Assembly (NCBI GenBank): GCA_005116955.1
Contig: SWDI01000005.1
Location: forward strand, 161,156-219,162
From: Nitrospira sp.
GTDB taxonomy: Bacteria; Nitrospirota; Nitrospiria; Nitrospirales; Nitrospiraceae
Direction of reading: 5' to 3'
Length of the DNA stretch: 58,007 nt
Shown: in pieces, positions 1 through 5,602 of the stretch
How positions within the stretch are numbered: the stretch's first letter is position 1
How the letters are laid out: each line of letters begins with the position of its first letter
Translations under genes and position numbers: made by a program
Notes under the pieces: generated by a model
Seen by the model: the letters and a program-made list of their open reading frames with translations, nothing else
Databases searched by the model: none
What the model was told of the DNA's origin: nothing

Positions 1-74
1 CTCTTCATTGCCTCGCTCCTTTGGCTCGCCACCACCCGGTGGCATCGGTGAAGCCAGGCTACCACTTAGCACAC

Positions 75-1352
75 TGTCCGAATTTCCGGAGCCCCCTCTG
101 TCTGTAGGCTGTTTTTGTTTGGTGCCGACTTGAACGTCGTTTGCCAAAAACCATGTACGTTCCCCGGGGTAACCACCCCGAGGAATGCATATGTATGTTG
201 GCAAGACGCTGTTCGCTCAGGTCATGGAGTTCGTACCGTGGACGAGCTTCACGCGCATCGTGCATCGGTATCGAGGCAACGCGGGTGTGCGCACGCTGTC
301 GTGCGCCGAGCAGTTTCGTGCGATGGCCTTCGCGCAACTCACCTGGCGCGAGAGCTTGCGCGACATCGAGGTCAGCCTGTCCGCCAACCCCTCCAAGCTC
401 TACGCGATGGGATTTCGCTCGCCGGTCAAACGCTCCACGCTGGCCGATGCCAACGAATCGCGCGACTGGCGCATCTGGTTCGATCTGGCCACCGTGCTGA
501 TCCGCCGCGCCCGCAACGCGCTCGGTGTCGAGCTGAACAACACCGTCTACGCGCTCGATTCCAGCACCGTCGATCTGTGCCTGAGTCTGTTCGACTGGGC
601 ACCGTTTCGCTCGACCAAAGCGGCCATCAAGCTGCATACCTTGCTGGACCTGCGCGGCTGTATTCCGGCGTTCCTCTATATCAGCGATGGCAAGCTGCAC
701 GACGTGAAGGTGCTGGACTTGCTCGCGTTCGAGGCGGGTGCCTTCTACGTGATGGATCGCGGGTATGTGGACTTCGCGCGGCTGTACGTGCTGCATCAGG
801 CTGGCGCGTTCTTCGTCACCCGTGCGAAGTCGAACTTCAACGCGCGGCGGGTGTACTCCGCGCCCTGCGAGCGCGACAGTGGCGTGATCTGCGATCAGCG
901 CGTTGCGCTCAACGGCTTCTATGCCGCGCGAGATTATCCGGAGCATCTGCGGCGCATTCGCTTCAAGGATCCGGACTCGGGCAACAGGCTGGTTTTTCTG
1001 ACCAACAACACCGCGCTTTCCGCCCTGACGATCTGCGCACTGTACAAGCAGCGCTGGCAGGTCGAACTGTTCTTCAAGTGGATCAAGCAGCACCTGCGCA
1101 TCAAGAAGTTTCTGGGCACCAGCGAGAACGCGGTGAAGACGCAGGTGTGGTCCGCCATCGCCACCTATGTGCTGATCGCCATCGTGAAGAAGGAGCTTCA
1201 CCTCAATGCCTCACTCTACACATGTCTACAGATCTTGTCGGTCTCAGTTTTCGAGAAAACCCAGCTTTCATGCGCCCTGCAGCTCGATGACCATCGAACC
1301 GAACCGCCAGCAGACGACAACCAATTGATTTTGTTCAACCCTTAACCGGACA
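75..1352 (+). mobile_element. IS4-family insertion sequence (approximate ends)
   Basis: The element is defined by the complete IS4-type transposase it encloses. TGTCCG at 75-80 and its reverse complement CGGACA at 1347-1352 sit just outside the gene and may be the inner match of imperfect terminal inverted repeats. I could not find a convincing target-site duplication, so the true ends may lie a few bases further out. The DNA is clearly more GC-rich than the AT-rich gene that follows, as expected for a recent arrival. Confidence 0.55.
191..1345 (+). CDS. IS4-family DDE transposase
   Basis: This is the transposase of the insertion sequence. The N-terminus resembles the DUF4372 domain that precedes the catalytic core in this IS4 subgroup. 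The DDE residues can be placed: first Asp in ALDSSTVDLC, second Asp in YVMDRGYVDF, and the Glu in YKQRWQVELFFKWIKQ, which is the YREK-like signature of IS4. At about 384 residues it is full length with no internal stop. ATG at 191 is preferred over ATG at 185 because GAGG at 180-183 is then 7 bases upstream and the protein begins MYVGKTLFAQ, as relatives do. Long open frames on the other strand and in other frames are GC-driven shadows. Probably intact and potentially active. Confidence 0.92.
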   Translation: MYVGKTLFAQVMEFVPWTSFTRIVHRYRGNAGVRTLSCAEQFRAMAFAQLTWRESLRDIEVSLSANPSKLYAMGFRSPVKRSTLADANESRDWRIWFDLATVLIRRARNALGVELNNTVYALDSSTVDLCLSLFDWAPFRSTKAAIKLHTLLDLRGCIPAFLYISDGKLHDVKVLDLLAFEAGAFYVMDRGYVDFARLYVLHQAGAFFVTRAKSNFNARRVYSAPCERDSGVICDQRVALNGFYAARDYPEHLRRIRFKDPDSGNRLVFLTNNTALSALTICALYKQRWQVELFFKWIKQHLRIKKFLGTSENAVKTQVWSAIATYVLIAIVKKELHLNASLYTCLQILSVSVFEKTQLSCALQLDDHRTEPPADDNQLILFNP

Positions 1353-1549
1353 CCAATGGCATCTTATAAGAATTCAAGATGCGGATTCCCCCAAGCCTTT
1401 TGGCTTTTTGGATCTATTTCTTCAAGGTAGGACAATGGGCCCATGAGAGTCCTCCTCCTCATCTCGTTTTTGACGTTTTGCCTGTCGTAAGCCAAAATAT
1501 AAGCTCTCAATTTGTAAATCCAGTCCCAGTAGTGTTTTGAATAGGATTT

Positions 1550-3274
1550 ATGAAGCGCTATACCCTGGAAGACATGCAGCAGCTTGCAAGTAAGAGAGGA
1601 GGAAAGTGTATCTCCAATGAATATCGAGGGATGAATCACCGCCTGCATTGGCGCTGCGGTAACGGTCACGAGTGGTTTGCAATCCCCAGTTCAATCAAAG
1701 GAGGTCATTGGTGCCCGCGTTGCTATGGGAATACCCCATTTACCCTTATGGAGTTAAGCAAAATTGCCGCTTCGCACGGTGGCCATATCCTCTCGACGAA
1801 ATTCGATAACCGACGGTCAATACTTCAGTGGCGCTGCGCGGAGGGGCATGAATGGCACACATCAGCTCAGAATGTGATGGCTGGACATTGGTGCCCAGTG
1901 TGCGGACAAAGCCAGCCTCTCTCTTTGGAAACAGCGATGAAAGCTGCCATCATTAATGGTGGAAGATGTCTGTCTGAATCTTATGCTAACGCACGGTCAC
2001 CACTTCTCTGGGAATGCAAATTCGGTCATCGGTGGCGGGCAACGCTCTCTAAAATTCGCGGTGGGCAATGGTGCCGCATCTGTCGAACAAAGCAAACTGC
2101 GGCGAAACTCCGACTCACATTGGATGAAGTTCAGAAGCGTGCAAGACAAAAGGGAGGGATATGTCTTGCCACTGAATATGGAGGCACAGCGGGTACTGTC
2201 CTACAGTTTGAGTGCGCACATCAACATCGTTGGTGGGCTTCGCCCAATACTATTCAACGTTCCTGGTGCCCTTATTGTGCAGGGAAAATCGTCAACCTAG
2301 ATGACATTCAATGCATCGCACGCGAGCGCGGTGGAGAATGCATATCAGAGCGTTATACCAATGACCATACAAAACTCTCATGGCAGTGTCGTTATGGGCA
2401 CAAGTGGGATGCTACCCCTGGATCCGTAAAACGTGGTAGTTGGTGCCCAGAGTGTTCTACTGGACTAGGAGAACGTCTTTGCCGCGCCTTCTTTGAGTCA
2501 CTCTTCAAAGCAGATTTCTCTCGCGCATACCCTACGTGGATGAAGCTCGGAGGGCGTAGAAAATTACAACTGGACGGATACAATGAAGGGCTTGGCATCG
2601 CATTTGAGCATCATGGGCGGTATCATTTCGTTGTTGAAGGAAGATATTCCAAAGATGCAACGGCGCTTGCGCGGAGACAACAACTTGACACTGTGAAAGA
2701 ATCGCTCTGCCGGACGCACGGTGTTCGCCTCATCATAGTTCCTGAAATACCTACAATGCTACCGGTCGATAAGGTTAGGGAATTTGTTCTAGCGCGCTGC
2801 TCAGAGGTAGGAATCACAGTACCAGACCCCAATGCCACTACGAATCTTATGCGTGCCTATGCACCTGACTGGTGGAATTACTATAACGAGATGGCGATAG
2901 CGCGTGGCGGAAGGCTCCTTTCTAAGCATTACATGGGTGCTGGCACTAAACATCAATGGAGCTGCATGGAAGGGCACATTTGGGAATCTGTTCCAAATAG
3001 TATTCAGCAAGGGACCTGGTGCCCATTTTGTCGAGGCATCAGAATTTTGGATGAAATAAAGGTGACGCGCTTAGCTGAGTTGGCTGAAATCGCCAATGCA
3101 CGTGGCGGGAAATGTTTAGCTATGGAATATGTAAGCTGTAACACTAAAGTCTCTTGGCAGTGCAGGGTAGGACATGAATGGGAGGCCACTCCACGAAATG
3201 TTATCGCTAATAGCTCATGGTGTCCGTACTGCTGGCAAGCCCGGCGCGGACTTCGAAAGGGCCAGCGGTCGTAA
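1550..3274 (+). CDS. Seven-fold zinc-ribbon repeat protein with embedded PD-(D/E)XK-like nuclease domain
   Basis: The 574-residue protein is built from seven copies of a ~60-residue unit: a helix ending ARxRGGxCLS, then WxCxxGHxW, a short basic loop, and WCPxC. Units start near residues 1, 63, 122, 184, 246, 440 and 496. Most keep four metal ligands (Cys/His of CxxGH plus the CPxC pair); unit 4 reads CAHQHRW, and unit 3 ends CRIC. Between units 5 and 6 (about 304-437) is a domain with LDGY at 341-344, then IAFEHHGRYHF (Glu353, His355) and a downstream RR-D-K set near 375-383, as in Vsr/PD-(D/E)XK-like nucleases. Zinc-ribbon units of this type with such a domain occur in uncharacterised phage and mobile-element proteins. 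Function is unknown; DNA binding and cleavage is inference. It follows an IS element and is more AT-rich than the backbone, suggesting transfer. Confidence 0.85.
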   Translation: MKRYTLEDMQQLASKRGGKCISNEYRGMNHRLHWRCGNGHEWFAIPSSIKGGHWCPRCYGNTPFTLMELSKIAASHGGHILSTKFDNRRSILQWRCAEGHEWHTSAQNVMAGHWCPVCGQSQPLSLETAMKAAIINGGRCLSESYANARSPLLWECKFGHRWRATLSKIRGGQWCRICRTKQTAAKLRLTLDEVQKRARQKGGICLATEYGGTAGTVLQFECAHQHRWWASPNTIQRSWCPYCAGKIVNLDDIQCIARERGGECISERYTNDHTKLSWQCRYGHKWDATPGSVKRGSWCPECSTGLGERLCRAFFESLFKADFSRAYPTWMKLGGRRKLQLDGYNEGLGIAFEHHGRYHFVVEGRYSKDATALARRQQLDTVKESLCRTHGVRLIIVPEIPTMLPVDKVREFVLARCSEVGITVPDPNATTNLMRAYAPDWWNYYNEMAIARGGRLLSKHYMGAGTKHQWSCMEGHIWESVPNSIQQGTWCPFCRGIRILDEIKVTRLAELAEIANARGGKCLAMEYVSCNTKVSWQCRVGHEWEATPRNVIANSSWCPYCWQARRGLRKGQRS

Positions 3275-3319
3275 AACGGGCGTATAGTAGGTCGGTTATG
3301 TACTGTGTGAATATGCATT

Positions 3320-4006
3320 TCAATGACTGGCATCCTTCACTTGTTCATTTACTGGTGGAGGGAGATTTTGCTCTGAAAATGCCCTCAACCAATCCATGCC
3401 GTCTTTATAGAAGGCGGTAAACGCCTTCGCTAGCCACATCAAGGAGACACCATGGAACTGGACCCCTGATGCAAGTTTATTGCGATCCAGACTGAGTGCA
3501 TAGACGCAGGGCTCATCTCTGCCTATGACGTTGATGTCTGAGTCCACAAACGAATGTTTAAAAGCATTTGCAATCTCATTTAACTGGGTAAGCATGTGAA
3601 TGTGCGGAGTCCAAGGTTTTAGATACTCTTCTGGGGATAGGTCTAACAAGGCACCGATGCAGTCTACTTTTATCTTTTCTGGACAACCACCTTTTGTTTG
3701 CCACTCGGACAAGCACCATATCAGCGAAATCATTTCGTCGGCTGTTCTCCTTAAAAGGTAGATGGCTTGTTCGTTGGCATAGATGTGTCGTTGGAGCGCA
3801 TTGGGCGGAGAGATGCCATCCGGTCGGGCCTGTTCCCAAAACGCACGGCTCTCCGTAAGCCTACGATTTGCCTCATCTATGCGCTGACAGATCTTCATTA
3901 ATTTGAGTTGGAAGTTCCCATAGGGGGAATTGGGTGGGAGCCAAAAACCAAGTCTGGCACTATATGGCTCATCGGGACTTTTCCCGTTATCAATCCAGAT
4001 GGTCAT
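3320..4006 (-). CDS. Conserved-looking hypothetical protein
   Basis: A 228-residue cytosolic protein that I do not recognise. It has no signal peptide or membrane segment; the middle (about residues 45-135) is predicted largely helical, with charged and Leu/Ile-rich stretches such as YLLRRTADEMISLIW. An all-helical HEPN-like fold is possible but unsupported by a clear RxxxxH motif. The start is set at ATG 4006 because GGAGG lies 7 bases upstream; the open frame extends 17 codons further up without a ribosome site. It converges with the zinc-ribbon gene and lies in the same AT-richer accessory patch. Confidence 0.6.
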   Translation of the reverse strand: MTIWIDNGKSPDEPYSARLGFWLPPNSPYGNFQLKLMKICQRIDEANRRLTESRAFWEQARPDGISPPNALQRHIYANEQAIYLLRRTADEMISLIWCLSEWQTKGGCPEKIKVDCIGALLDLSPEEYLKPWTPHIHMLTQLNEIANAFKHSFVDSDINVIGRDEPCVYALSLDRNKLASGVQFHGVSLMWLAKAFTAFYKDGMDWLRAFSEQNLPPPVNEQVKDASH

Positions 4007-4120
4007 CAATCTGCCTCCGTATCGAGCACGTTTGTTAACTAGGACAGACAATAGCATTCTAGCTAGTTTGAGGCAGATCTATCGCGTCCCATGTGGTAGG
4101 GAATTCGGGGGGACAGGGAA

Positions 4121-4170: not shown

Positions 4171-4306
4171 GACGAGCAGGGGAATCGGCAATGCTGACAA
4201 TGGGTTTCGAAGTTTTTCGCGGGGTTCGAGGACTGATGCTTCGGGATTTTCAAGACCGGCACGTTAGGCCGCTGCGTGGTGTTCGATGGGACCCAGAGGG
4301 GTGTGC

Positions 4307-5602
<1,296 letters not shown>

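Follow-up and report, generated by a model that had tools for sequence, protein, structure and literature searches.

We propose that the protein encoded at 1550–3274 of the window (the whole analysed stretch of 58,007 nucleotides from Nitrospira sp. contig SWDI01000005.1) is a free-standing, homing-type, site-specific DNA endonuclease, a prediction that we regard as fairly probable. The proposal is supported by the domain layout, the predicted fold, the conserved set of active-site residues, horizontal movement, purifying selection and, for a phage relative, location in an intron together with empty alleles. Its seven treble-clef units, presumably holding zinc, would grip a long, asymmetric DNA target to the left and right of the cut, while a nick or cut inside the target would be made by the central Vsr/EDxHD domain (E308, D342, E353, H359 and D380 with a divalent metal). 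Since the nuclease lies inside the array, the cut is expected within the bound region. Repair of the cut from the donor chromosome would then copy the gene and its flanks into DNA without the gene, which may additionally travel as genomic-island cargo. For the Nitrospira copy, DNA binding by each unit, cleavage, homing and a target sequence are predicted. The gene resembles a mobile gene, one belonging to a large class that has hardly been studied, rather than that of an ordinary restriction enzyme.

Treble-clef units on both sides of a central domain

The pattern C-x3-H-x-W-x(10,20)-W-C-x2-C occurs exactly seven times in the 574-residue protein (residues 36, 96, 156, 222, 280, 472 and 538), whereas in 20,000 shuffled versions of the sequence it averaged 0.00005 matches and never exceeded one. 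Five units (residues 4–304) are N-terminal of a central domain of about 130 residues (305–436) and two (residues 440–563) are C-terminal of it. Four potential zinc ligands (C-x3-H plus C-x2-C) are present in 7/7 units, for which zinc binding is predicted from the sequence (Table 1). The protein is strongly basic, with a net charge of +32. Searching Pfam recovered seven DUF4379 (PF14311) stretches (E 1.9e-24; 86.1 bits against a curated cut-off of 24.5) and a CapR match exceeding the CapR cut-off (E 2.4e-7); DUF4379 is at present described in Pfam as a probable treble-clef zinc finger. The preliminary description of this DNA had counted seven units flanking a nuclease-like domain, which was confirmed; the units are of Cys-His/Cys-Cys type. 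The motif WxCxxGHxW...WCPxC given there fits the units overall, but unit 4 reads FECAHQHRW and unit 3 WCRIC, and the name 'zinc ribbons' was abandoned because the family is that of the treble-clef (DUF4379/CapR) fingers.

Models of single units (model residues 124–186 and 433–502; window 1919–2107 and 2846–3055) are similar to chain Fd of 7pua/6sga (Z about 5), an assembly protein of the trypanosome mitoribosomal small subunit, a hint that a related finger may exist in eukaryotic organelles.

Table 1. Features of the locus, in positions of the window.
Feature	Position	Strand	Remarks
IS4-type transposase (DUF4372 + DDE_Tnp_1)	185–1345	+	neighbour, 205 bp upstream of the ORF
Segment 99–100% identical to Nitrospira RSF1	1359–4110		except at an assembly gap in RSF1
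ORF, 574 aa	1550–3274	+	five treble-clef units, Vsr-type nuclease, two treble-clef units
Unit 1	1559–1729	+	residues 4–60; ligands C36 H40 C55 C58
Unit 2	1739–1909	+	residues 64–120; ligands C96 H100 C115 C118
Unit 3	1919–2089	+	residues 124–180; ligands C156 H160 C175 C178
Unit 4	2114–2284	+	residues 189–245; ligands C222 H226 C240 C243
Unit 5	2291–2461	+	residues 248–304; ligands C280 H284 C299 C302
Vsr/EDxHD-type nuclease domain	2462–2857	+	residues 305–436; conserved E308, D342, E353, G356, H359, D380, K383; from conservation and predicted fold
Unit 6	2867–3037	+	residues 440–496; ligands C472 H476 C491 C494
Unit 7	3065–3238	+	residues 506–563; ligands C538 H542 C558 C561
ORF of unknown family, 245 aa	3320–4057	-	convergent; common to RSF1 in the matching segment
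tRNA-Ser(TGA) fragment, 31 nt	4247–4277	-	adjoins serS
serS	4307–5593

Predicted fold and active site of the central nuclease

The structure model of residues 244–507 was built on 42 sequences and has a mean pLDDT of 90. Its core is alpha-beta-beta-beta-alpha-beta, and VIA-align matched it to Vsr (1cw0; Z 9.7, 111 residues, 3.5 A) and to the catalytic domain of I-Bth0305I (3r3p; Z 9.2, 97/97 residues, 2.9 A). Both enzymes are within the top three rows and well above TnsA (Z 5.8), AbaSI (Z 5.4) and others; Vsr entry 1vsr was found at Z 8.7, and the further high rows, at Z 9.4, 8.2 and 6.1, belong to mitoribosomes. With the full-length model the top matches were unchanged, Vsr scoring Z 10.0 and I-Bth0305I Z 8.9. 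Judged from these models, the central domain is a predicted Vsr-fold nuclease, so the restriction-endonuclease fold suspected earlier was found. In the Dali/Foldseek-type check proposed with it, VIA-align found Vsr but plain Foldseek against the PDB was weak (Vsr at rank 5, E 0.32). A PDB sequence search with the protein gave no true relative and sequence-profile comparisons of the nuclease with Vsr and I-Bth0305I were not significant, so that the family link to these enzymes rests on fold and motif. PHROG 559 matches the units plus the nuclease (E 5.8e-64), and for the nuclease domains of relatives the matches include PHROG 9084, labelled 'homing endonuclease', and PHROG 7140, labelled 'intron encoded nuclease'.

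In an alignment of 37 relatives, D342, E353, G356 and H359 are invariant and E308, D380 and K383 are conserved in more than 90%. E308, D342, H359 and D380 match the EDxHD set by order, being placed by motif and weak alignments and not by superposed coordinates; the counterpart of D380 in Vsr is D97, and that of IAFEHHG in I-Bth0305I is LAIEVNG, each in an alignment that is weak when taken alone. In Vsr, D51 and H69 are paired in the active site (PMC11879112). Position 355 varies freely between H, N, D and Q among the 37 relatives, and His355 is therefore not a catalytic residue. The residue numbering in the preliminary description (D342, E353, His355) was correct, but its suggestion that His355 stands in for Lys or Gln did not hold, since 355 varies and the residues conserved are E308, D342, E353, H359, D380 and K383. 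The classical PD-(D/E)XK arrangement, with Lys two residues past the second acidic residue, is absent: position 355 is H/N/D/Q and the conserved Lys is K383.

Comparison with known systems

In outline, proteins combining an array with a Vsr-type nuclease were reported in 2025 from introns of phages, where the nuclease is C-terminal. These group II intron homing endonucleases (CapR/DUF4379/DUF723 plus EDxHD/Vsr; PMC12350094) likewise consist of repeated units of about 60 aa related to CapR/DUF4379 and a nuclease distantly related to EDxHD/Vsr. They are intron-borne and have three to five units ahead of the C-terminal nuclease, whereas the Nitrospira protein carries seven units around an internal nuclease and is free-standing. 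The EDxHD homing endonuclease I-Bth0305I, whose target is long at nearly 60 bp (PMC3943268), shares the catalytic fold and the conserved E..G segment; it is a phage intron enzyme with no significant sequence match, compared here by its catalytic domain alone. Vsr (1cw0, 1vsr) also shares the catalytic fold, and D342, H359 and D380 correspond by motif to its D51, H69 and D97, but the Nitrospira protein is without CFWHHHH and a dcm neighbour and carries putative DNA-reading arrays. The T5orf172/GIY-YIG homing endonucleases with CapR/DUF723 repeats, reported in 2023, resemble it in the repeated zinc-finger unit and differ in the nuclease, which is GIY-YIG; their modular repeats were proposed to set specificity (PMC10448857).

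The cellular form, in which the nuclease lies between two arrays, is distinct from these in its architecture and was seen here in bacteria, archaea and plasmids; a partial literature search gave no description of it. Neither a solved structure (sequence search) nor biochemical or activity data (the literature searched) were found for the array-plus-Vsr class. The internal-nuclease form is a small system in which recognition of long DNA by repeated zinc fingers flanking a cut could be tested, and it would reveal by what means cellular genomes retain free-standing genes of the homing type.

Relatives in cells and viruses

A genome scan gave 56 loci from many bacterial phyla and archaea. A single-protein query of viral contigs found no close relatives and an alignment query was needed, which gave 126 relatives, the best 80 of 126 being used. 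The class occurs in Bacteria, several archaeal groups including Lokiarchaeota, plasmids, phages and giant viruses. Structurally matching proteins are present in giant viruses and phages, several of them named homing endonuclease or group I intron-associated VSR homing endonuclease. The nuclease tree has two clusters. One is a mostly viral branch (29 rows, support 95) with the nuclease C-terminal in all; the other is a mainly cellular set in which the nuclease lies between units in 42/67 rows. Many forks of the tree are unresolved. Layouts among the relatives, as units before plus units after the nuclease, include 5+2, 4+3, 3+4, 3+3, 5+7 and others. The Nitrospira protein falls in the mainly cellular set, and outside its Nitrospira kin the rows closest to it are those of a Sulfurimonas plasmid, an archaeon and a Bdellovibrionota genome, a mixture that points to horizontal spread.

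The relative in Staphylococcus phage SscM-1 (DUF4379, CapR and nuclease) lies inside a terminase gene split by group I introns. These introns all score below the gathering cut-off of Rfam, although E is below 1e-4 for two; the terminase is uninterrupted in many phages related to SscM-1, providing empty alleles. Viral relative L153 adjoins a group I intron scoring above the gathering cut-off. In T5-like phages and Klebsiella phage KpV79, like units are fused to a GIY-YIG nuclease, and the KpV79 gene splits a DNA polymerase, whose two annotated pieces flank it. These intron and split-gene positions indicate behaviour typical of homing endonucleases, as has been stated for related proteins (PMC12350094, PMC10448857). 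No introns were found at 15 loci of the cellular branch.

The Nitrospira locus

The gene was present in 3/35 Nitrospira genomes first searched, including the source genome of 3.65 Mb, and is thus sporadic. It is free-standing, with no interrupted gene at the locus, and Rfam gave no intron there at the gathering or a permissive threshold. The copy in Nitrospira RSF1 is 99.8% identical, while the adjacent serS is 92% and the other flanks are 85–92% identical. The segment common to both genomes (Table 1) appears to be an island segment recently shared between two species that differ by about 8% next door; both assemblies have nearby N gaps, and a small residual risk remains that the 99.8% identical block is an assembly artefact. 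The 245-aa ORF in this segment has no Pfam, NCBIfam or PADLOC match; a near full-length copy exists only in RSF1, with fragments in three other Nitrospira genomes. The segment is situated between serS and tRNA-Ser(TGA). These two are adjacent in Nitrospira G022 but have about 1.4–6 kb of variable DNA between them in other genomes, and this interval is an insertion hotspot in Nitrospira, marked in the window by the 31-nt tRNA-Ser fragment (Table 1). The third copy (Nitrospira G001, LS_FP_2_bin.31) is at a different locus, in an island of about 3.7 kb that is absent from G010. Codon 229 of this copy is a stop and 102 bp have been inserted, but all catalytic residues are kept. Between the two Nitrospira lineages dN/dS is 0.20 (0.11 for units 1–5), indicating that the array is maintained by purifying selection. 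Island boundaries were found when the Nitrospira empty sites were searched for a homing target, but no cognate target or defined empty target allele. Since the Nitrospira copies lie in variable intergenic islands with other genes and no defined empty target, ordinary island recombination could explain their transfer.

The IS4-type transposase noted in the preliminary description is indeed the upstream neighbour, but it is not part of the unit, and it was rejected as carrier of the gene because no such element lies beside the RSF1 or LS_FP_2_bin.31 copy. The AT-rich setting had been overstated (locally about 50% GC against about 55% in the rest of the window). As to the mobile or defence role suggested there, the gene is probably mobile, given the contrast with serS and the other locus in G001, and defence is possible.

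The IS4-type element (window 1–1358) is single-copy with about 61% GC and abuts a 100-N scaffold gap just outside the window (L008:16057–16156), so the join upstream of it may be unreliable. The 102-bp insertion of the G001 copy (L007:7229–7330) contains two palindromes rich in GC (CCCCGCAGC..GCTGCGGGG type) and in this resembles a small repeat element.

Alternatives to homing

The main rival is an island-borne defence nuclease whose array would recognise phage, plasmid or rival-island DNA for cutting by the Vsr-type domain, the gene spreading by protecting its host or island. This is conceivable, if rather unlikely. Its position in a tRNA-Ser-linked variable island and the strong purifying selection agree with it, the G001 copy adjoins an Abi_alpha gene, and neighbours of relatives include matches to MADS, AriA, AbiL, DpnI and PDDEXK_4 proteins (raw occurrences with no background rate). 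However, PADLOC, whose library holds described systems only, gave no match for the protein, no self-protecting methylase adjoins the gene, and the neighbourhood survey that had been suggested for the homologues revealed no conserved or recurrent partner gene, the neighbours being as mixed as in any mobile hotspot. The phage relatives, moreover, are intron-borne, and in our assessment homing has more direct support from relatives than defence.

That the protein is a DNA-binding regulator or element-maintenance protein with a vestigial nuclease, similar to the PLE repressor CapR, which has a related zinc finger and no nuclease (PMC10448857), seems improbable. Nuclease-free arrays do exist on Burkholderia and Cupriavidus plasmids, but the catalytic residues are all intact in the source copy and the diverged G001 copy and are conserved across phyla. 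These plasmid-borne DUF4379 arrays lie at L047:2731–3999 (Burkholderia) and L048:2926–3984 (Cupriavidus), the latter adjoining a Tn3 transposase, an HU-like gene and a tyrosine recombinase.

An array that reads RNA or DNA structure in place of DNA sequence is suggested by the likeness of a unit model to chain Fd of 7pua, an assembly factor of the mitoribosomal small subunit (Z 5.0 over 59 residues), but we think it very improbable, since DNA is the substrate of the proteins known with related fingers (phage homing endonucleases and CapR) and the nuclease fold is that of DNA-cutting enzymes. Mismatch repair by a Vsr-like nuclease at T:G mismatches can practically be dismissed: E. coli Vsr is the closest solved fold, but GRYHF replaces the Vsr motif CFWHHHH, the distribution is sporadic, and no cytosine methylase adjoins the gene (neighbours being the IS, an orphan ORF and serS), whereas E. 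coli vsr overlaps dcm.

Divergence of the units

The two-sided arrays might form a modular DNA-reading system in which each unit would contact a few bp with a learnable preference and a monomer would read tens of bp on either side of the internal cut. Such a natural counterpart of engineered zinc-finger/TALE nucleases, distributed across bacteria, archaea, plasmids and viruses, is a speculative idea to which we give a low probability. Positions differing between close orthologues were scattered over the unit, with no clear specificity residues. In the close orthologues L084 and L085 the unit order is kept and corresponding units are 80–94% identical, against about 40% identity among the units of a single protein, which fits distinct fixed roles on a long asymmetric DNA site. 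The Bacillaceae relative L084 (L084:4386–6988) is frame-split, with 5+4 units plus a further three-unit frame, and L085 has 5+7 units in one frame.
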